Part shown: piece after piece, positions 4,003-36,912 of the stretch
Layout of the letters: every line of letters begins with the position of its first letter
Position numbering within the stretch: position 1 is the stretch's first letter
Notes under the pieces: model-generated
Databases searched by the model: none
Seen by the model: only the letters and a program-made list of their open reading frames with translations
Told to the model about the DNA's origin: nothing
Program-made: the position numbers and the translations under genes
Assembly (NCBI RefSeq): GCF_000964005.1
Contig: NZ_JXYP01000014.1
Coordinates: 186,001-250,000 of the forward strand
DNA: 64,000 bases
Reading direction: 5' to 3'
DNA from: Williamsia herbipolensis
GTDB taxonomy: Bacteria > Actinomycetota > Actinomycetes > Mycobacteriales > Mycobacteriaceae

Positions 4003-5610
4003 GTGACCGCACCCGAACAGTCGAGCCCGGCCGCTTCGTCGCCTGCCGAATCGGCCGCCCCCCGCCCCGTCCTCGTCGTCGATTTCGGCGCGCAGTACGC
4101 GCAGCTCATCGCACGGCGGGTCCGCGAGGCGCGTGTCTACTCCGAGGTGATCGCCCACTCGGCCTCCATCGAGGAGATCAAGGCCAAAAACCCGGTGGCG
4201 CTGGTCCTCTCGGGCGGCCCGGCGTCGGTCTACGCCGAGGACGCACCGGGTCTCGACCCCGCCGTCCTCGACCTCGACATCCCCGTGTTCGGCATCTGCT
4301 ACGGCTACCAGGCCATGGCCAACGAGCTCGGCGGGGTGGTGGCCAACACCGGCGGCCGCGAGTTCGGCCGCACCACCCTGTCGCTGACGGGGGAGTCGGT
4401 CCTGCACTCCGGTCTGCCCGAGAGCCAGCCGGTGTGGATGAGCCACAACGACGCCGTGCAGGAGCCCCCCGCCGGGTTCACCGTCACCGCGTCGACCCCG
4501 GGTGCGCCGGTCGCGGCGTTCGAGAACCTGGAACGCCGGATGGCCGGAGTGCAGTACCACCCGGAGGTCATGCACACCCCACACGGCCAGCAGGTGCTCA
4601 CGCGCTTCCTCTACGAGGTCGCCGGGCTCGAACCGAGCTGGACGGCGGCCAACATCGCCGACGCCCTCGTCGAGCAGGTGCGCGCCCAGGTCGGCGAGAC
4701 CGGTCTCGCGCTGTGCGGTCTGTCGGGCGGCGTCGACTCCGCGGTCGCCGCGGCGCTGGTGCAGAAGGCGATCGGGGATCGGCTCACGTGCGTCTTCGTC
4801 GACCACGGTCTGCTGCGTGCCGGCGAGCGCGAACAGGTCCAGAAGGACTTCGTCGCCGCGACCGGGGCCCGCCTGATCACCGTCGACGCCGAGGAGACCT
4901 TCCTCCGTGAGCTCGCCGGGCACAGCGATCCCGAGACCAAACGCAAGATCATCGGTCGCGAGTTTATCCGGTCGTTCGAGGGTGCGGTCTCCGACGTGAT
5001 CGGCGATGCCGACTCGAGTGTCGATTTCCTGGTGCAGGGGACGTTGTATCCCGACGTCGTCGAGTCCGGCGGGGGCAGCGGCACCGCGAACATCAAGAGC
5101 CACCACAACGTCGGCGGACTGCCCGAGGATCTCGAGTTCGCCCTCGTCGAACCCCTGCGCCTGCTGTTCAAGGACGAGGTGCGGGCGGTCGGTCGCGAGC
5201 TGGGTCTGCCCGAGGAGATCGTTGCGCGCCAACCGTTCCCGGGTCCCGGCCTGGCGATCCGCATCGTCGGTGAGGTCACCGCGCAACGGCTCGACATCCT
5301 GCGCGCCGCCGACCTGATCGCCCGTGAGGAACTCACCGCGGCCGGACTCGACGACACCATCTGGCAGTGCCCCGTGGTGCTGCTCGCCGACGTCCGCAGT
5401 GTCGGGGTGCAGGGTGACGGGCGGACCTACGGACACCCGATCGTCCTGCGGCCGGTGTCGAGCGAGGACGCCATGACCGCCGACTGGACCCGCGTTCCCT
5501 ACGAGACCCTCGAGCTCATCTCGACCCGCATCACCAACGAGGTCGCCGAGGTCAACCGCGTGGTCCTCGACGTCACCAGCAAGCCCCCGGGCACGATCGA
5601 GTGGGAATAG
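4003..5610 (+). CDS. guaA: GMP synthase (glutamine-hydrolysing)
   Basis: This 535-residue enzyme aminates XMP to GMP using glutamine and ATP, completing the guaB route. The N-terminal class I glutamine amidotransferase domain has the nucleophile elbow GICYGYQ and the HPE of YHPEVMH. The central ATP-pyrophosphatase domain has the P-loop [12 protein letters not shown]. The C-terminal dimerisation domain has GPGLAIRI and ends GTIEWE. GTG 4003 is preceded by TAGACT (3990-3995) at 7 nt with no Shine-Dalgarno, suggesting a leaderless transcript. Starting there gives the usual family length; the open frame extends further upstream inside choD but without homology. An inverted repeat array follows the stop. 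Confidence 0.97.
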
Positions 5611-5618
5611 CCCCCCAG

Positions 5619-5763
5619 TTGGGCACGTAACGACGCCGGTTGGGCACGTAATGCCGTCGGTTGGGCACGTAATGCCGTCGGTTGGGCGGGTAGTGCAGCC
5701 CCCGTGCAGTGTGGTGCCCAACTGCGGTATCTACGTGCCCAACTGCGGTATTTGCGTGCCCAA
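5619..5763. repeat. Inverted array of 21-bp units after guaA
   Basis: Seven 21-bp units run without gaps. Four point forward (5619-5639, 5640-5660, 5661-5681 and the degenerate 5682-5702), each starting TTGGGCACG or TTGGGCGGG. Three are reverse-complemented (5701-5721, 5722-5742, 5743-5763), each ending GTGCCCAA. Units 2 and 3 are identical. The two half-arrays face each other around 5702, so the transcript from either strand can form a long imperfect hairpin. The array sits between the convergent guaA and the PspC operon and may act as a two-way terminator. No spacers or cas genes are present, so it is not a CRISPR. Confidence 0.85.
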
Positions 5764-5774
5764 CTGGGGTGGGG

Positions 5775-20061: not shown

Positions 20062-21357
20062 CTACGAGGCGGACGGGTCGTTCATGGTGCCGAGGAACAC
20101 CGGCAGACCCGTTGCGGTGTCGACGATCTGGTAGACGAACGCCCGATCAGCGGTGAAGGTGACCGTCGGAGGTTGCGGAACACCGGTGACGATCGGCACG
20201 CCGGTGGCCGCCGCGGCGACGGTGCCCCGTTCGCCGACGGTGATGACGCCGGCCTGCGCGGCGCCGCTGACCACCGCACCGGGTGCGATGCCGTCGAGCG
20301 ACCCCGGTGCGAAGATCCGCCCCATCCCGAGCGCGCGCAACACCGGGCCGAGATCGATCGACGCCTCGGTCTTCCAGCGCGGCACCGTCACCTCCACACC
20401 CGGTGTCGGTGTCGCCGCGCGCAGGGCCCCCGACACCGACGCCAACACGGTGTCGGACAACACCGATCGCGTCGTGGCACCGGACGCCGGCATGATCACC
20501 TGCATCGCCAGACCGGCACCGGCATAAGGGAGTTCGGCGGCAGTCCACCCGGGCCCGTTCGCCAGACGGGTCGAGAAGGTCCCACCCATCAGCGGCGCCG
20601 ACACGGTACGACCCGTCGCCGTGGTGAACGGCTCGTCACGCGTCGCATCCGGACTGAACGGCGACGCCCAGGCGGCCGCCAGATAGACGGTGGTCAGCAG
20701 CGCGAGGTCGGTGTCGGAGCCGATCGGCACCGGTGCACGGGTGATCTGCCCGCCGGTGTTGACCGCCACCCACTCGTTCACCGCCTCCCGTGCCTGCGGT
20801 GTCGCGAAGTCCAGTGGATAGACACCGGAGTCGAAATACCGTGCGAGAGCAGTGAGATAGTCGCGACGAGGCGGATGCGAGTACGCGATGAACGCGCCCG
20901 CACCCTGCTGATACACCGGGGGACTGGGCGGGTTGTCCACATCCACCGTGCCGGGATCGCCACCGATCGCACCGAGCTGACCCAACAGCGCCGCGATCGC
21001 CTCCGGACGGCTCGTGCCGAGCACACGGTCGATCTCCGCGGCCGCGGTGTCGTCGGCACCGGCCCGCACCATCCCGATCGCCGTCACCGCGCTCCACGGG
21101 GAGACGACGGTGTTCGGCGACCCCGTCGACGACGATGCCGACGCCATCGCGACGCCGACGCGCCGGACCCCGTCGACCAACGCCTCGGTGGCCGCGCGCT
21201 CGGTGTCGATGCCGATCTGTGCGAATGTCACGCTCGGTGCCTTACTCAGTTGTGCCGTGTCGGGTGGCACCGCATCGGTGGCACACCCGCTGAACAGCAG
21301 GACCGTAGCCACGGCCACCGACACGGCCGTCCGTCGTCGAGAGGCGATGGAGCTCAC
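20062..21357 (-). CDS. Serpin-family lipoprotein protease inhibitor
   Basis: This 431-residue protein has an N-terminal signal (SSIASRRRTAVSVAVATVLLFSGC) with a lipobox-like LFSGC and lipidation at Cys25, followed by a full serpin fold. The hinge of the reactive loop reads ERGTVAAAATGV (from Glu376), the small-residue pattern required for inhibitory serpins. The C-terminal serpin signature appears as FTADRAFVYQI and GLPVFLGTMNDP. The scissile bond falls near VTGVP by counting from the hinge, but the exact P1 is uncertain. GTG 21357 is chosen because GGAG lies 7 nt upstream and it begins the signal peptide; longer starts read into a repeat. Serpins are uncommon in this group. Target proteases are unknown. 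Confidence 0.88.
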   Translation of the reverse strand: MSSIASRRRTAVSVAVATVLLFSGCATDAVPPDTAQLSKAPSVTFAQIGIDTERAATEALVDGVRRVGVAMASASSSTGSPNTVVSPWSAVTAIGMVRAGADDTAAAEIDRVLGTSRPEAIAALLGQLGAIGGDPGTVDVDNPPSPPVYQQGAGAFIAYSHPPRRDYLTALARYFDSGVYPLDFATPQAREAVNEWVAVNTGGQITRAPVPIGSDTDLALLTTVYLAAAWASPFSPDATRDEPFTTATGRTVSAPLMGGTFSTRLANGPGWTAAELPYAGAGLAMQVIMPASGATTRSVLSDTVLASVSGALRAATPTPGVEVTVPRWKTEASIDLGPVLRALGMGRIFAPGSLDGIAPGAVVSGAAQAGVITVGERGTVAAAATGVPIVTGVPQPPTVTFTADRAFVYQIVDTATGLPVFLGTMNDPSAS

Positions 21358-21399
21358 GAGTTCGCTCCGGCATCCTGGGGAGCTCACGAGTTCGCTCCG
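21349..21399. repeat. 21-bp direct repeat across a gene end
   Basis: Two identical 21-bp copies (21349-21369 and 21379-21399), each reading GAGCTCACGAGTTCGCTCC in its core, lie 30 bp apart. One contains the stop codon of the dehydratase-like gene and the other the ribosome site and GTG of the serpin gene. The distal copy continues into CGCGAGCGAG, so TCGCTC and GAGCGA can form a hairpin. Confidence 0.8.
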
Positions 21400-22460
21400 C
21401 GAGCGAGGAGGGGCCATCGCCCGACCTCGCCCGCATCGGTCACCGCGACGAGGTCGTCGACGAGATTGACCGTGATGCACACGTGGTTAGGCACCACCCG
21501 GACCACCGATCCGGCGTCGGGGAGCCGACCCTCGCTCACCACGGTCGCGTGGTGCTCGGACAGCGCGACGATGCGTGCGTCGGGAAGGTCGGGGAGCAGT
21601 CCGAAACCCGGTACCCAGTCGGGCTTCTCGGAACCCAGGATCTTGCTCCCGCAGTCGAGAACGGCGCGCCCCGGCTCACGACGGATGACCGTGGCGGCCA
21701 CCGACAACGACACGTCGTCGAGTCCCGCGCGCCCCAACGCCACCTGCTGGGCGTCGTTGAACGGGTACACACCCGGACGGACCTCCGTCAGGACATCGGG
21801 ATGGGCGAACTCGACCGTCGGCGTGGAACCGCCGCTGCGGACGATCGGATCGACCCCCACCGACGCCAACGCATCGGCGGCGTCGGAGATGGCCCGGGCC
21901 TCCTGATGCGCAGCGGACTCGCGCCCGGCGGGGGAGTAGCCGTGGCCCGGGAACGTGAACACACCCACCACCCTCAGACCGTGCGCAACAGCCTGTGCGG
22001 CAACGATTCCGGCGTCGGCCGGGGCGGTACCCGTGCGATGCTGACCACTGTCGACCTCGACGAGCACCTCGACCGATTCGCGGGCGTCGCCGAGTGCCTG
22101 CGCCATCGCGATCGCACCGGCCACCGAGTCGACCGCCACCCGCAACGAGGCGTCGTGTGCCACCGACCGCAACCGCTCGGCCTTCGACGCGGTGAGCCAC
22201 AGGGGATAGGCGATGAAGAGGTCGTCGAAGCCCGCAGCGGCGAACGCCTGCGCCTCACCGATCGTCGCGACGGTCAACCCGACGGCGCCGGAGGCGATCT
22301 GGCGCCGTGCGATGTCGGCGCACTTGTGGGTCTTGGCGTGGGGCCGGAGCGCGAGTCCCTGCGCGGCGACCCGCGTCGCCATGGTCGCGATGTTCGCCTC
22401 GAGCACGCCGGTGTCGACGCGGACGTACGGGGTGTCGGCGAGAGGGGGTCGGGTCGGCAT
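21384..22460 (-). CDS. D-serine dehydratase-like PLP enzyme (DSD1 family)
   Basis: This 358-residue enzyme has an alanine-racemase-type barrel with the PLP-lysine motif RPHAKTHK (Lys43). The C-terminal zinc-site motif, PNHVC, is typical of metal-dependent D-serine dehydratases and D-threonine aldolases. The SGGSTPT segment lies near the phosphate site. The reaction is probably elimination or retro-aldol cleavage of a D-hydroxy amino acid, but the exact substrate is unresolved. ATG 22460 follows TAGAGT (22474-22469) at 8 nt, suggesting a leaderless message. The serpin gene follows 26 bp downstream. Confidence 0.87.
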   Translation of the reverse strand: MPTRPPLADTPYVRVDTGVLEANIATMATRVAAQGLALRPHAKTHKCADIARRQIASGAVGLTVATIGEAQAFAAAGFDDLFIAYPLWLTASKAERLRSVAHDASLRVAVDSVAGAIAMAQALGDARESVEVLVEVDSGQHRTGTAPADAGIVAAQAVAHGLRVVGVFTFPGHGYSPAGRESAAHQEARAISDAADALASVGVDPIVRSGGSTPTVEFAHPDVLTEVRPGVYPFNDAQQVALGRAGLDDVSLSVAATVIRREPGRAVLDCGSKILGSEKPDWVPGFGLLPDLPDARIVALSEHHATVVSEGRLPDAGSVVRVVPNHVCITVNLVDDLVAVTDAGEVGRWPLLARGANS

Positions 22461-24514: not shown

Positions 24515-27500
24515 GTGGGTTGGAACGAGGGCCCGCCCACCTGGGCGGAGATGGAGCGGGTGCTGTCCGGGCGCCCGAACCAGGGCGGTCGACCGGGTGA
24601 GACGTTCCCCGGCGACGGCAGCGACAGCCCCGCGTGGTCACGCAAGCGCGAACCGTTCCGGGCCGACGACATCGAGCGCGGGCGCACCAGCACCCCGTAC
24701 GCCGAGTTGCACGCCCACACCTCCTACAGCTTCCTCGACGGCGCGAGTTCTCCCGAGGAGATGGTCACCGAGGCCCACCGCCTCGGACTGTCGGCGCTCG
24801 CGGTCACCGATCACGACGGGTTCTACGGGGTCGTCCGATTCGCCGAGGCCGCCCGCGAGTGGCGCATGCCGACGGTCTTCGGCGCGGAGCTGTCGCTGCA
24901 GCACGACGCCGCGCGCACCGGCGTCGCCGATCCCGGTGGCGCACATCTGTTGGTTCTCGCGCGCGGGCAGGACGGATACCGCCGGTTGTCGCGTCAGATG
25001 GCGGCCGCGCACATGGCCGCGGGTGAGAAGGGGTTGCTGCGCCACGATCTCGACACCCTCGCCGCGGCGGCCGATGATTCCTGGCTGATCCTCACCGGGT
25101 GTCGTAAAGGCGCGGTGCGACAGGCGTTGTCGACCGGTGGTCCCGATGCCGCCGCGACCGAGCTACGGACTCTGATCGACCGGTTCGGCCGCGACAACGT
25201 CGTCGTCGAACTGTCCACCGCCGGGTTGCCCACCGACGACGAACGCAACGCGGCGCTCGCCACGCTCGCCGCCGCCCACGGCCTGCACGCGGTGGCGACC
25301 ACCGGAGCCCACTTCGCCGCCCCGAACCGGCGGCGTCTGGCGATGGCACTCGCCGCGGTGCGCGCACGGTCGAGTCTCGACGAGATCGCCGGGTGGCTCG
25401 GCCCGCTCGGGGGAGCGCACCTGCGCAGCGGCGACGAGATGGCGACACTGCTCGCCGCACACCCCGAGGCCATCGACAACTCCGCACAGTTCGGCATCGA
25501 CTGTGCCTTCGAACTCCGTCTGATCGCACCGGAACTGCCGCCGTTCGACGTGCCGGCCGGGCACACCGAGAAAACCTGGCTGCGGGAGCTGACCATGCGA
25601 GGTGCCGCCGACCGCTACGGCACACCCGCGACACACCCCAAGGCCTATCGACAGATCGAACACGAACTGGCGGTGATCGATTCGCTGAACTTCCCGGGGT
25701 ACTTCCTGGTGGTGCACGACATCGTCGACTTCTGCAAACGGTCCGACATCCTCTGTCAGGGTCGCGGCAGCGCCGCCAACTCCGCGGTGTGTTTCGCCCT
25801 CGGTGTCACCAACGTCGACCCGGTGCGCAACAGCCTGCTGTTCGAACGGTTCCTATCGCCCGAGCGGGACGGTCCGCCCGACATCGACGTCGACATCGAA
25901 TCCGATCGACGCGAGGAGGCCATCCAGCACGTCTACTCGAAGTACGGCCGCGAGTACAGCGCACAGGTCGCCAACGTCATCACCTACCGCGGGCGGTCGT
26001 CGGTGCGGGACATGGCTCGCGCACTGGGGTATTCGATCGGGCAGCAGGACGCGTGGAGCAAACAGGTCAGCCGATGGGGACGCACGGTCGACCAAGATGA
26101 GAACCCAGGCGACGAGAACCCAGAAGCAGATATCCCCGCCGATGTCCTCGATCTCGCCGGTCAGGTGTCGGGGATGCCGCGACATCTCGGCATCCACTCC
26201 GGCGGCATGGTGATCTGCGACCGCCCCATCGCCGACGTCTGCCCCACCGAGTGGGCGCGGATGCCCGGCCGCAGCGTGCTGCAGTGGGACAAAGATGACT
26301 GTGCGGCCATCGGTCTGGTCAAGTTCGACCTGCTCGGCCTCGGCATGCTCTCCGCGCTGCACTACGCGATCGATCTCGTCGCCGAGCACAAGGAGCTGCA
26401 CGTCGATCTCGCGCGGATCGACCTGGGGGAGAAGGCCGTCTACGACATGCTCTGTGCCGCCGACTCGGTCGGCGTGTTCCAGGTGGAGTCGCGCGCGCAG
26501 ATGGCCACCCTGCCCCGGCTGAAACCCCGCGAGTTCTACGACCTCGTGGTCGAGGTGGCGCTCATCCGTCCCGGCCCCATCCAGGGCGGGTCCGTCCACC
26601 CCTACATCCGGCGACGCAACGGACTCGAGGTGACCGGATACGAGCACCCGTCCATGCGGGCGGCGCTCGAACGGACCCTCGGGGTCCCGCTGTTCCAGGA
26701 GCAGCTGATGCAGCTCGCCGTCGACGTCGCCGGATTCGACGCCGCCGAGGCCGATCAGCTGCGACGCGCGATGGGATCGAAGCGGTCGCCGGAGAAGATG
26801 CAGAAGCTCAAGGAACGCTTCTACACCGGTATGGAACAGACCCACGGGATCACCGGCGAGATCGCCGACCGAGTGTTCGAGAAGATGGCCGCGTTCGCCA
26901 ACTTCGGCTTCCCCGAGAGTCATTCGCAGAGTTTCGCGGCGCTGGTGTTCTACTCCTCGTGGTTCAAGTACCACCATCCGGCGGCGTTCTGCGCCGCGCT
27001 GCTGCGGGCGCAACCGATGGGGTTCTACTCGCCGCAGTCACTGGTGGCCGATGCGCGCAGGCACGGTGTCGCCGTCCACGGCCCCGACATCAACATCTCA
27101 CTGGCCCACGCGAATCTCGAGAACAGTGGTCTCGACGTGCGGATGGGGTTGGGATCGGTGCGTCACATCGGCGACGAGGTGGCGCAGGTCATCGTCGACC
27201 GCCGTGTCGCCGACGGCCCCTACCGCACCCCCGCCGACCTGGCCCGTCGCGCCGAACTCGGCGAGAGGCAACTCGAGGCGCTGGCGACCGCGGGTGCGTT
27301 CGACTGTTTCGGCGGCAGTCGGCGGCAGGCGCTGTGGGATGCCGGGGCGGCCGCGTTCGAGCGAGCCGATCAGCTCGCGCTCGAGGCGTCGCTGACCGCG
27401 CCGACACTGCCCGGTCTCACCGATGTGGAGACCGCGGCCGCCGATGCGTGGGCCACCGGGGTCACGCCGAACGTCTATCCCACCCAGTTCCTGCGGCCCC

Positions 27501-27829
27501 GCCTGACCGCGATGGGTGTCGTCGCGGCCGACGGTCTGCTCGCCGTGCCCGACGGGTCACGGGTCGTCGTCGCCGGGGCGGTCACCCATCGGCAACGCCC
27601 GGCCACCGCGTCCGGCGTCACCTTCATCAACCTCGAGGACGAGACCGGCATGGTGAACGTCGTCTGTTCGGTGGGTTTGTGGAAGCGCTACCGCCGCCTC
27701 GCCCAGAACGCCACCGCGCTGGTCATCCGCGGCACGGTGCAGAACGCCGAGGGCGCGGTCACCGTGGTCGCCGAACACCTGGAGAAGATGGACCTCAAGG
27801 TCGGCACCCGATCCCGCGACTGGCGATAG
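24515..27829 (+). CDS. dnaE2: Error-prone DNA polymerase DnaE2
   Basis: This 1104-residue C-family polymerase performs damage-induced mutagenic synthesis with ImuA' and ImuB. The N-terminus MGWNEGPPTWAEMERVLSG is characteristic of DnaE2. A PHP domain follows (ELHAHTSYSFLDG, near residue 65). The catalytic palm carries CQGRGSAANS and PDIDVDIESDRREE with the metal-binding aspartates, and the C-terminal OB fold (GVTFINLEDETGMVNVV) is present. GTG 24515 lies 5 nt after TACAGT, giving a leaderless SOS-controlled mRNA. A short Asp/Glu/Pro insert near residues 527-540 (DENPGDENPEADIP) is unusual. The retron ncRNA candidate begins 18 bp after its stop. Confidence 0.97.
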   Translation: MGWNEGPPTWAEMERVLSGRPNQGGRPGETFPGDGSDSPAWSRKREPFRADDIERGRTSTPYAELHAHTSYSFLDGASSPEEMVTEAHRLGLSALAVTDHDGFYGVVRFAEAAREWRMPTVFGAELSLQHDAARTGVADPGGAHLLVLARGQDGYRRLSRQMAAAHMAAGEKGLLRHDLDTLAAAADDSWLILTGCRKGAVRQALSTGGPDAAATELRTLIDRFGRDNVVVELSTAGLPTDDERNAALATLAAAHGLHAVATTGAHFAAPNRRRLAMALAAVRARSSLDEIAGWLGPLGGAHLRSGDEMATLLAAHPEAIDNSAQFGIDCAFELRLIAPELPPFDVPAGHTEKTWLRELTMRGAADRYGTPATHPKAYRQIEHELAVIDSLNFPGYFLVVHDIVDFCKRSDILCQGRGSAANSAVCFALGVTNVDPVRNSLLFERFLSPERDGPPDIDVDIESDRREEAIQHVYSKYGREYSAQVANVITYRGRSSVRDMARALGYSIGQQDAWSKQVSRWGRTVDQDENPGDENPEADIPADVLDLAGQVSGMPRHLGIHSGGMVICDRPIADVCPTEWARMPGRSVLQWDKDDCAAIGLVKFDLLGLGMLSALHYAIDLVAEHKELHVDLARIDLGEKAVYDMLCAADSVGVFQVESRAQMATLPRLKPREFYDLVVEVALIRPGPIQGGSVHPYIRRRNGLEVTGYEHPSMRAALERTLGVPLFQEQLMQLAVDVAGFDAAEADQLRRAMGSKRSPEKMQKLKERFYTGMEQTHGITGEIADRVFEKMAAFANFGFPESHSQSFAALVFYSSWFKYHHPAAFCAALLRAQPMGFYSPQSLVADARRHGVAVHGPDINISLAHANLENSGLDVRMGLGSVRHIGDEVAQVIVDRRVADGPYRTPADLARRAELGERQLEALATAGAFDCFGGSRRQALWDAGAAAFERADQLALEASLTAPTLPGLTDVETAAADAWATGVTPNVYPTQFLRPRLTAMGVVAADGLLAVPDGSRVVVAGAVTHRQRPATASGVTFINLEDETGMVNVVCSVGLWKRYRRLAQNATALVIRGTVQNAEGAVTVVAEHLEKMDLKVGTRSRDWR

Positions 27830-27846
27830 TGAGCCATGGCAACATG

Positions 27847-27871
27847 ATCGGATGCGTGGTGGGCGAGACGA
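27847..27871 (+). repeat. Retron a1 arm
   Basis: This 5' arm (core GGATGCGTGG then TGGGCGAGACGA) pairs with the a2 arm. In retrons, a1/a2 pairing positions the 2'-OH of the branching guanosine and the reverse transcription start. Confidence 0.75.
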
Positions 27872-27992
27872 GAACGGGGTGACACACCCGTCTCAGGGGC
27901 AACCCCTGGGTACACCACACAGCGAGACCCTGCGTCCGACGCCGGACCGCACGCTGCGCGTGCATCGCGGCGCCGAGGACAGGAGAATTCGG

Positions 27993-28017
27993 TCGACTCG
28001 CCCGCCACGCATCCGGT
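27993..28017 (+). repeat. Retron a2 arm
   Basis: This 3' arm (TCGACTCGCCCG then CCACGCATCC) is complementary to a1. Its last two bases are the first two of the RT start codon, so pairing could also limit RT translation. An AGGAG at 27981-27985 lies just inside it. Confidence 0.75.
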
Positions 28018-29284
28018 GACGATCGAGGCCGTGCGACGGTATCCGCGCTCGACGGCCGAGATGCTCGCCGCCATCGTCGATGCGGCCGATCCCGAATGGA
28101 CGCGAGAGGGTCTCGCCGACGCGCTCTCGGCACACCGCCGCGGTCTCGACGACGCGCAGGCGGACGCCGTCGCAGGTCACCTCCTCGTCGCGTTTCCCCG
28201 CCAACCTCCGGATCGGCGTGACGCGATCGCCGGGCGCATCGTCGAACTGGCGATGCCGCCCATGCGTGAGCGCCCGGCGCTGCGCGAGTTGTGGGACGGT
28301 CTGCCGCGCTACACCGACTACTACGCCCTCGCGGCGGCCTACGACATGACCGTGCCCGAGCTCGACTGGCTGGCCGACCGCGGAACCTGGTTGCGGTCGA
28401 GAACCGGTCCGCTGCAGCACTATCGCGTGACCCCCATCCCCAAACGGCGAGGTGCCCGCGTCCTCGAGATCCCGAAACCGCGACTCCGTGAGACACAGCG
28501 ACGCATCCTGCGCCGTGTCCTCGACCGGCTGCCGCCTCACCCTGCCGCACAGGGATTCGTCGCCGGGACGTCGCCGGCGACGTTCTCGAGCCCCCACGCC
28601 GGTCGGCCGGTGGTCATCCGCATCGACCTCCGCCGGTGCTTCGAGACGATCACCGTCGCCCGCGTCCGTGCGGTGTTCGCCGCGGTCGGATACCCACCCG
28701 CCGTAGCCCGCGCGCTGGCCGACCTGTGCACCACGACAACACCGGCGGAACGCCTCGTCGGCGTGGACCCCGTGCACGCGGCGATCCTGCGATCCCGCCA
28801 CCTGCCGCAGGGGGCGCCGACCTCGCCCGCTCTGGCCAACCTCGTGATGCGCACTCTCGACCGCCGCATCACCGGCTATGCCCACCGACACGGACTCGTC
28901 TACACGCGCTACGGCGACGACATGGCCCTGAGCGGAACCATCGACGACCCGTCGGCAGTCGTGTGGGTGGTGCGGCAGATCGTCGCCGACGAGGGTTTCA
29001 CCGTCCACGGCGACAAGACGCGCATCATGTACGCCCACCAGCAGCAGCGCCTCACCGGATTGGTGATCAACGATCGTCCGCGCGTGTGCCGATCCGAATA
29101 CGACGATCTGCGGGCGTTGTTGCACAACGCGATTCGGACCGGGGCCCGGGCCCAGAATCGCGACGACGTCGGGGACTTCGAGGCCCACGTCCGCGGACGG
29201 ATCGCGTGGGTCGGGGCGACGAGCCCCGCCCGGCGGCAGAAGCTTCTCGAGATGGCGTCCCGGGTGGACTGGAGCAGTGACTGA
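28016..29284 (+). CDS. Retron-type reverse transcriptase
   Basis: This 422-residue RNA-directed DNA polymerase has a helical N-terminal extension of about 130 residues. The RT fold follows with IPKRRGARVLEIPKP, catalytic Asp204 in RIDLRRCFE, LPQGAPTSP (263-271), the catalytic YGDD box at 299-302 and HGDK (331-334). The LTGLVIN motif (346-352) matches the VTG region of retron RTs. The style (long N-terminus, PPHPAAQGFVAG) recalls the Mx162-type myxobacterial retron RTs rather than Ec86. There is no maturase or endonuclease domain and no cas gene nearby, so a group II intron or CRISPR RT is unlikely. GTG 28016 is the first available start and no proper ribosome site is seen. No partner effector gene follows. 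Confidence 0.9.
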   Translation: MTIEAVRRYPRSTAEMLAAIVDAADPEWTREGLADALSAHRRGLDDAQADAVAGHLLVAFPRQPPDRRDAIAGRIVELAMPPMRERPALRELWDGLPRYTDYYALAAAYDMTVPELDWLADRGTWLRSRTGPLQHYRVTPIPKRRGARVLEIPKPRLRETQRRILRRVLDRLPPHPAAQGFVAGTSPATFSSPHAGRPVVIRIDLRRCFETITVARVRAVFAAVGYPPAVARALADLCTTTTPAERLVGVDPVHAAILRSRHLPQGAPTSPALANLVMRTLDRRITGYAHRHGLVYTRYGDDMALSGTIDDPSAVVWVVRQIVADEGFTVHGDKTRIMYAHQQQRLTGLVINDRPRVCRSEYDDLRALLHNAIRTGARAQNRDDVGDFEAHVRGRIAWVGATSPARRQKLLEMASRVDWSSD

Positions 29285-29415: not shown

Positions 29416-29880
29416 CTAGACCGCGCCCTCGAAGCCGTTCTGACGCCAGGCCTCGTACATCACGATGCTCGCGGCGTTGGCGAGGTTGAGCGATCGACGA
29501 CCGGCGAGCATCGGGATGCGCAGTCGTTCGGTGACGTGCGGGTCGGCGAGGACCTCGTCGGACAGGCCGGTCGGCTCGGGCCCGAACAGCAGCACGTCAC
29601 CCGGCCGGTAGTCGACCGCGGTGTGGAACTTCTCGGCGTGCGCGGTGAACGCGTAGACGCGTTCGGGGGCGAGCGCCTCCCAGGCGGCGTCGAGATCGCG
29701 GTGCACCGTCACCGACGCCATCTCGTGGTAGTCCAATCCCGCCCGCTTCACCTTCGCCGCATCGAGATCGAAGCCGAGCGGTTCCACGAGATGCAGCTCA
29801 CACCCCGTGTTGGCCGCCAGACGGATGGCGTTGCCGGTATTGGGGGGTATGCGAGGTTCATGGAACAAAATGCGGAACAC
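29416..29880 (-). CDS. trmL: tRNA (cytidine/uridine-34 2'-O)-methyltransferase
   Basis: This 154-residue SPOUT methyltransferase (TrmL/YibK type) methylates the ribose at the wobble position 34 of leucine tRNAs using SAM. The N-terminal PRIPPNTGNAIRLAANTG is family-defining. The C-terminal trefoil knot carries LLFGPEPTGLSDE, RIPM and SLNLANAASIVMYEAWRQ. GTG 29880 gives the expected MFRILFHEP start. It is convergent with the RT gene and divergent from the rhomboid-like gene. Confidence 0.93.
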   Translation of the reverse strand: MFRILFHEPRIPPNTGNAIRLAANTGCELHLVEPLGFDLDAAKVKRAGLDYHEMASVTVHRDLDAAWEALAPERVYAFTAHAEKFHTAVDYRPGDVLLFGPEPTGLSDEVLADPHVTERLRIPMLAGRRSLNLANAASIVMYEAWRQNGFEGAV

Positions 29881-36748: not shown

Positions 36749-36785
36749 GGGGCGACAGTGCCCCGTGGGTCCGACCATCGGACCC
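36749..36785 (-). terminator. Expression-platform hairpins of the metY leader
   Basis: Two stems lie between the riboswitch core and the metY start: GGGTCCGA/TCGGACCC (36767-36774 and 36778-36785, loop of 3) and GGGGC/GCCCC (36749-36753 and 36760-36764). No T-tract follows. They could be an intrinsic terminator or control access to the ribosome site. The remainder of the gap to 37115 holds the divergent promoter area and no gene. Confidence 0.55.
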
Positions 36786-36821
36786 GCGCTTGCTGCGGAG
36801 CGTCGCCTTCGGCGAACGCCC

Positions 36822-36912
36822 ACAACCTGGTCTTTCACCCGGAGCACCCCACCGCGGTTGGAGGGTTGCCGATCAGCGAGCCGGGGCTTGGCGCTGATGC
36901 TCATGACCTGGC
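36822..36912 (-). promoter_or_regulatory. SAM-IV-like riboswitch before metY
   Basis: On the minus strand the leader reads GGTCATGAGC, then CAGCGCCAAGCCCCGGCT, CGGCAACCCTCC, AACCGCGGTGGGGTGC and GACCAGG. These are the conserved blocks of the actinobacterial SAM-I/SAM-IV riboswitch superfamily, in the SAM-IV form. The first and last blocks pair as P1 (GGTC/GACC). SAM binding should lower expression of metY and metX. Confidence 0.85.

Follow-up and report, generated by a model that had tools for sequence, protein, structure and literature searches.

The window, by which we mean the whole 64-kb stretch of Williamsia DNA analysed here, carries what is best explained as a retron composed of a structured ncRNA (27847-28017) and its cognate reverse transcriptase (RT, 28016-29284), with no linked effector gene; we estimate the probability of this reading at about 0.85. 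The first-pass annotation had proposed a probable new retron, and while the retron part of this proposal is borne out by covariation within the RNA and by the linkage of RNA and RT, its novelty has to be narrowed, as the RT family is already present in PADLOC as a retron RT. The accompanying opinion that such retrons are undescribed in this bacterial group was overstated, given that two retron RT models of PADLOC recognise this protein at E < 1e-159. These two, RT_other (PDLC02949) and RT_outgroup (PDLC03740), are models of the RT, and all 32 sampled relatives match them together with the window RT; PADLOC, as far as its accessible description goes, also includes retron ncRNA models in general. 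At most, therefore, the ncRNA family and its lone, inherited state are new, the novelty of the RNA being provisional. Rfam offered no family at the gathering score, only chance-level matches (E 0.28 and 1.2), and no msr-msd or msDNA of this actinobacterial group was recognised in the accessible parts of the literature matches listed, the surveys of Mestre 2020 and Khan 2024 lying outside that search. A published retron-type RT from a related genus is an annotation only, the available portion of the text containing neither “msdna” nor “msr”, and surveys mentioning putative retrons in Actinobacteria are referred to in the accessible part of Simon 2019 (PMC6868368). Coordinates of the element and its flanks are collected in Table 1.

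Table 1. Features of the retron locus and flanking genes, in window coordinates.
Feature	Position	Strand	Evidence or remark
dnaE2-like DNA polymerase III alpha, flanking (outside element)	24515..27829	+	Pfam DNA_pol3_alpha and others
ncRNA (msr-msd), 171 nt	27847..28017	+	R1 match 152.2 bits, 1.1e-24 (window copy is 1 of 48 training sequences); fold z -6.3
Arm a1	27847..27871	+	Partner 27993-28017; helices 1-2 with two-sided changes in 14/16 pairs (92 sequences)
Candidate priming guanosine, context GAGA	27872	+	Invariant in 91/91 family sequences; directly after a1
msr hairpin 1	27876..27889	+	Modelled stem; two-sided changes in 4/5 pairs
msr hairpin 2, 8-bp stem and 3-nt loop, likely RT recognition stem	27892..27910	+	100% of cells paired; two-sided changes in 5/8 pairs
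msd region, putative template of <=82 nt (probable limits)	27911..27992	+	Between hairpin 2 and a2; GG 27991-27992 invariant in 91/91
msd stem, apical hairpin 27949-27963	27940..27972	+	Helices 6 and 7; two-sided changes in 6/9 pairs
Arm a2	27993..28017	+	Partner a1; TC 27993-27994 invariant in 91/91
Retron-type reverse transcriptase, 422 aa	28016..29284	+	Pfam RVT_1 2.2e-19; PADLOC RT_other 9.5e-173, RT_outgroup 1.4e-160
N-terminal extension, about residues 1-94	28016..28297	+	Outside Pfam match; poorly conserved; helices in low-confidence model
YGDD active site	28910..28921	+	Y, D, D invariant in 32/32 relatives
LTG, counterpart of region-Y VTG triplet	29051..29059	+	G invariant in 32/32
SpoU-family (trmL-like) methyltransferase, flanking (outside element)	29416..29880	-	Pfam SpoU_methylase

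The two arms delimiting the RNA are, exactly as had been noticed initially, complementary across 25 positions; A27868/A27996 is the single mismatch, and T27848-G28016 and T27860-G28004 are the two G-U pairs, all of which can be read directly from the sequence. The segment 27840-28025 folds at -101.3 kcal/mol (z -6.3), none of 200 shuffles being equally stable. As an inverted repeat with loop in the range of 60-260 nt, the arms score 21.1 and rank third in the window, the two higher scores coming from one array of repeats at about 5.6-5.8 kb. In 12 window-length first-order Markov controls the top scores ranged from 16.1 to 19.3, these controls being somewhat lenient, as repeats scoring at least 14 number 44 in the real window versus 11-18 in the controls. 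A chance inverted repeat was ruled out by the fold shuffles, covariation and Markov controls taken together. The array itself (5612-5770) supplies the highest-scoring inverted repeat in the window (26.6); it consists of direct copies of a GTTGGGCACGTAATG-like unit, after which come inverted copies (TACGTGCCCAACTGCGG-like).

Between the arms, the two msr-like hairpins and the msd-like stem that had been proposed are backed by covariation. Two msr hairpins in the window element fall within the number of 1-3 given for retrons in the accessible part of Simon 2019 (PMC6868368). The conserved msd stem comprises 9 modelled pairs with an internal loop and becomes longer in the window's own fold, retron msd hairpins being expected to be long, about 10-50 bp. 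Invariance in all 91 family sequences is found for G27870 and A27871 at the end of a1, for G27872 and for GG-TC at 27991-27994, whereas msd bases 27934-27937 and 27954-27955 are conserved though unpaired in the model, so that the DNA sequence of the msd itself may matter. The same source, within its accessible part, states that the a1 stem contains the priming guanosine or ends right before it, and lists TAGC, CAGA, CAGC, GAGC and ACGC as motifs around this base; G27872 is placed right after a1, and its context GAGA is absent from these five motifs.

Covariation was assessed starting from an alignment of 48 non-identical RNAs of 9 genera, for which RNAalifold yielded a consensus of 40 pairs, 24 of them with two-sided changes, and from which the covariance model R1 was built. 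Run on 94 sources (92 host-family loci and 2 loci of other families), R1 matched 91 of the 92 family RT loci, including 43 outside the training set, and missed L111, bearing a truncated RT; of the two other-family loci, L117 gave a weak match (32.5 bits, E 0.0032) and L116 was missed. A simpler arm scan assigned to L116 arms scoring 15.6, a weak value since second-best repeats elsewhere reach 14.4, and in some loci (e.g. L033-L036 and L075) it chose a wrong repeat where R1 found the RNA. In the R1-based alignment of 92 sequences, which is fitted to the model, 96.8% of cells pair and two-sided changes occur in 30 of the 40 pairs (610 cells), versus means of 20.6 pairs and 171.6 cells in shuffled and 9-16 pairs and 26-186 cells in slid controls. 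The MAFFT alignment, tested with the structure derived from this same alignment, gave 96.0% of pairing cells and two-sided changes in 24 of 40 pairs (233 cells), with shuffle means of 17.0 pairs and 62.0 cells and 8-14 pairs and 18-61 cells on sliding. Compensatory changes, which had been suggested as a check on the first proposal, thus occur in the hairpins and, in abundance, in a1/a2. The spacing of the two arms is 119-126 nt in 76 of 92 sequences, 129-139 nt in 15 and 156 nt in one. Although the RT frame is open through the RNA in the window, many relatives have an RT frame opening only past a stop inside the RNA, and a coding origin of RNA conservation was therefore rejected.

Linkage of the RNA to the RT is nearly complete. 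Retention of the a1/a2 pairing in relatives keeping the RT had been the other check proposed, and the RNA is kept at 91 of 92 family RT loci; among 401 sampled host-family genomes it is found in 112 of the 113 bearing the RT and in none of the 288 lacking it, the lone exception being G286 with its truncated RT. Beyond the family, three Burkholderia replicons carry RTs of 41-45% identity, preceded by R1 matches of 31.0, 25.4 and 23.4 bits (E 0.0005, 0.005 and 0.012). Arms are present at these loci in a separate scan, the three look like close copies, and in the annotated record ordinary genes flank the RT on both sides; with scores this modest and loci this alike, the R1-like RNA before Burkholderia RTs is suggestive only. 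The weak matches are located directly before the RTs at 5729-5910 of L120 and at 5449-5630 of both L121 and L122, and the inner end of a1 there has CAAGC context, nearer to classical AGC than the GAGA of the window.

The RT motifs noticed at the outset (QGAPTSP, YGDD and LTGLVIN) are present in the translation. The frame begins with GTG at 28016, overlapping a2 by two bases, and in 88 of 91 loci the offset of the assigned start codon relative to the end of a2 is between -7 and +63 nt, the remaining three having short frames that start at a distance of 283-455 nt. Near end-to-end matches were obtained with PADLOC RT_other (573.8 bits) and RT_outgroup (533 bits), the best typed match being RT_XIII (5.5e-92, residues 94-417); all 32 sampled relatives match these three models at E <= 1e-40, their best matches being retron RTs. 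The closest solved structures are retron RTs as well, with Ec86 on the first place (1.6e-31 for a single sequence and 3e-51 for a profile). NCBIfam retron models match the window RT only below their cut-offs, Drt2 and Drt3a matches are weak, and a group II intron RT was ruled out by scores. Region Y contains LTG in the window RT and mostly LAG in relatives, the accessible literature giving VTG as the retron triplet with I or L in its first place in 26%; according to the same portion of the literature the NAXXH motif of region X occurs in 59% of retron RTs, being not universal, and it was not seen by eye in the window translation. The long N-terminus claimed for this RT exists and is better described as a fast-changing extension with no recognised domain: Pfam reported no second domain in the RT. 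A structure model built on three sequences proved uninformative (mean pLDDT 53, pTM 0.37). For the RT core, dN/dS is 0.04-0.20 in 17 of 17 close pairs; for the 70-residue stretch before the core, 15 pairs fall at 0.05-0.34, one pair of low dS reaches 1.17 and one is undefined. By these substitution rates the N-terminus is kept, evolving faster than the core. GC3 equals 0.846 for the RT and 0.867 for the dnaE2-like gene upstream.

Each of the 113 RT-bearing genomes has the RT at one locus (E <= 1e-40), and within the genus Williamsia 6 of 8 genomes, the source genome included, possess it. Across the phylum, matches to PADLOC RT_outgroup at E <= 1e-60 came from 5 genomes among 396, including two that belong to other families. 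On the RT tree (92 rows) genus labels change 15 times, with a minimum of 13 and a shuffled mean of 62.6; genera of other than single origin are g9 with 4 changes, g1 with 3, and g6, g23 and g16 with 2 each. From these tree data we read the inheritance of the retron as mainly vertical, with some moves and losses, the chromosomal sites it occupies being ordinary ones. Plasmid records with RT relatives number 11, including the copy on the Dietzia pII plasmid with a transposase and a recombinase nearby, and since such copies exist the element also moves, descent being the main and not the sole mode. In one record labelled as Tsukamurella “plasmid 5” (L118, NZ_LR134447.1) the retron is surrounded by polA and rpsA, so that this record looks chromosomal; by likeness to L118 and L119, genera g30 and g4 would correspond to Tsukamurella and Dietzia, respectively. 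A viral origin was rejected: a scan of IMG/VR, sensitive to close relatives alone, found no relative, and the RTs in phage records (10) were no more than 27-34% identical. On a Shigella sonnei plasmid (L124), a distant lone RT (33% identity) has as its neighbour a hypothetical gene of 434-aa scale, with macrolide-resistance genes in the vicinity; R1 detected no RNA at this locus at E <= 5. RT copies with internal stops, split or truncated were observed in G191, G268, G277 and G286, the RT being in two pieces in G268 and G277 and the assembly of G277 being fragmented; the RNA is retained in the first three and absent from G286. The damaged or truncated copies in G191, G268 and G286 imply that the element is dispensable.

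In the window the retron fills the gap between two facing genes, which we take to be dnaE2 (24515-27829) and trmL (29416-29880). An empty site is found in two congeners, G001 and G004, where the matches to dnaE2 and trmL are 19 and 10 nt apart, so that the insert missing there is 1.6 kb long and consists of RNA and RT only. With dnaE2 upstream and trmL downstream, the same setting recurs in all fetched loci of g1 (Williamsia, 6 genomes), in 8 of 8 loci of g11, in the sole g17 locus and in 4 of 19 loci of g9, nine of which have only about 1.5 kb of flank; some of the dnaE2-trmL loci carry other genes in between, and all 10 g30 loci occupy one other common site. The stop codon of dnaE2 is separated from a1 by 17 nt in the window, by 18-19 nt in other g1 loci and by 4 nt in g17, and a gap of 4-19 nt leaves no room there for an ordinary promoter. 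As dnaE2 is damage-inducible in some actinobacteria, the retron RNA lying 17 nt behind this gene might be co-expressed with it under DNA damage in Williamsia. Elsewhere in the window, a SAM-IV riboswitch (36781-36908, minus strand, 98 bits) is placed upstream of same-strand ORFs, which from the pathway are presumably metY and metX, and a bacterial serpin is encoded at 20062-21480 on the minus strand (Pfam Serpin 2.8e-61), serpins being unusual in Actinobacteria.

The flanking frames of 93 loci were clustered in the search for a linked effector, and across genera this revealed no dedicated partner gene, though the procedure may overlook distant homologues. Flank families represented in at least three genera are the genes of the dnaE2-trmL site and two other clusters, namely short-chain dehydrogenases (15 loci) and what are, by comparison with L118, probably ABC-transporter ATPases (19 loci); both occur at varied places and on varied strands and are therefore read as common superfamilies. 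PADLOC matched none of 10 window neighbours. When the gene closest downstream was sampled at 20 loci of 10 genera, PADLOC matched one, that match being mad1 at 31 bits for a gene which Pfam identifies as a MerR-type regulator. Three of these 20 genes have no counterpart in Pfam; the others serve metabolism, transport, the cell envelope or regulation, and one is a resolvase. An effector, if there is one, may be unlike the known ones or encoded elsewhere. The idea that this is a typed retron, whose adjacent effector varies by genus and escaped the searches, draws on the fact that retrons typically have effectors, on close co-directional downstream genes in several loci (e.g. L091, L056 and L085) and on gene calling so crude that the RT itself was missed in 25 of 93 loci; we nevertheless regard it as improbable, for the 20 downstream neighbours belong to unrelated families on both strands with the single PADLOC match mentioned, and the two congeners with the empty dnaE2-trmL site lack precisely RNA and RT.

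The remaining alternatives concern the nature of the element as such. DRT2 and DRT9, according to the accessible literature, likewise join an RT with an ncRNA, and combined with the weak Drt2 and Drt3a matches this allows one to imagine a non-retron defence system of DRT/UG type using its RNA as template or scaffold for other DNA synthesis; retron models, however, score far higher, and the layout is that of retrons, with an invariant base right after a1 and an msr stem of 8 bp with a 3-nt loop, making such a system very unlikely. A comparably slim chance is given to an inactive, decaying remnant of a former retron: the patchy presence (113/401) and the stops, splits and truncations in four genomes, one of them a fragmented assembly, would suit it, yet all 17 close pairs compared show purifying selection, the active-site residues do not vary among the 32 relatives and pairing is maintained despite sequence change, each of which speaks against decay. 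Finally, the inverted repeat could be a terminator or attenuator of the upstream gene and no part of a retron, given that a1 begins 17 nt past the dnaE2 stop in the window and that 66 of 88 loci have an upstream gene reading in the same direction (by the crude gene caller). This is scarcely credible, because the same RNA precedes the RT at loci with different upstream genes, the spacing of the arms is confined to 119-126 nt in 76 of 92 cases and the RNA is missing from all 288 genomes devoid of the RT.

If the element is a retron, its transcript would fold via a1/a2 and the RT would recognise msr hairpin 2; the 2'-OH of G27872, situated just inside a1/a2, would then prime copying from G27992 just before a2, and copying through at most 82 nt (27911-27992) would produce a branched msDNA not exceeding about 80 nt, presumably remaining bound to the RT. 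Among known systems, the matched chains of Retron-Eco1 (Ec86), a retron which has an effector, are 320-349 aa long, without an N-terminal extension of the length seen in the window RT. Type XIII retrons, whose partner genes encode ARM and WHSWIM proteins, provide the best typed PADLOC match, yet a much weaker one than RT_other, and their partner genes were not found next to the window RT. In the accessible account of Simon 2019 (PMC6868368), RT binding in Retron-Eco1 requires a stem of 8 bp closed by a loop of 3 bases, dimensions that hairpin 2 shares. From the same account, myxobacterial retrons (Mxa1/Mx162 and Sau1/Sa163) resemble the present one in vertical inheritance within a bacterial group and in host-like codon bias, but their msDNA is proven and their msd is 162 nt versus at most about 82 nt here. 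Similar in composition are the lone retrons Sda1 and Bth1, described in the accessible part of PMC12548924 as RT and ncRNA without a typical or obvious effector, as here; these are single cases in Sphingobacterium and Bacillus, and Bth1 is extrachromosomal.

As to its role, we lean weakly, at somewhat less than even odds, to a sensor of phage or nucleic acid with an output provided by the N-terminal extension of the RT or by a host protein encoded elsewhere. A rather doubtful suggestion going further is that of an effector-free resident lineage of mycolic-acid actinobacteria, with a sister layout in Burkholderia, transmitted mostly by descent at fixed chromosomal sites and forming an RT-msDNA particle which would not guard a linked toxin and might, for example, take part in a DNA function of the host; where the RNA is 4-19 nt behind dnaE2, as it is in Williamsia and another genus, it may be co-transcribed with this gene.

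The RNA family, well delimited and with strong covariation, is usable for annotation, and retrons of high-GC Gram-positive bacteria are candidate DNA-writing tools. Retrons are now mostly read as phage defences carrying their own effector, and a retron that is single-locus, purifying-selected, mainly inherited and without a linked effector found offers a test case for the RT-msDNA particle alone, whose small DNA-RNA product may fulfil a previously unrecognised function.
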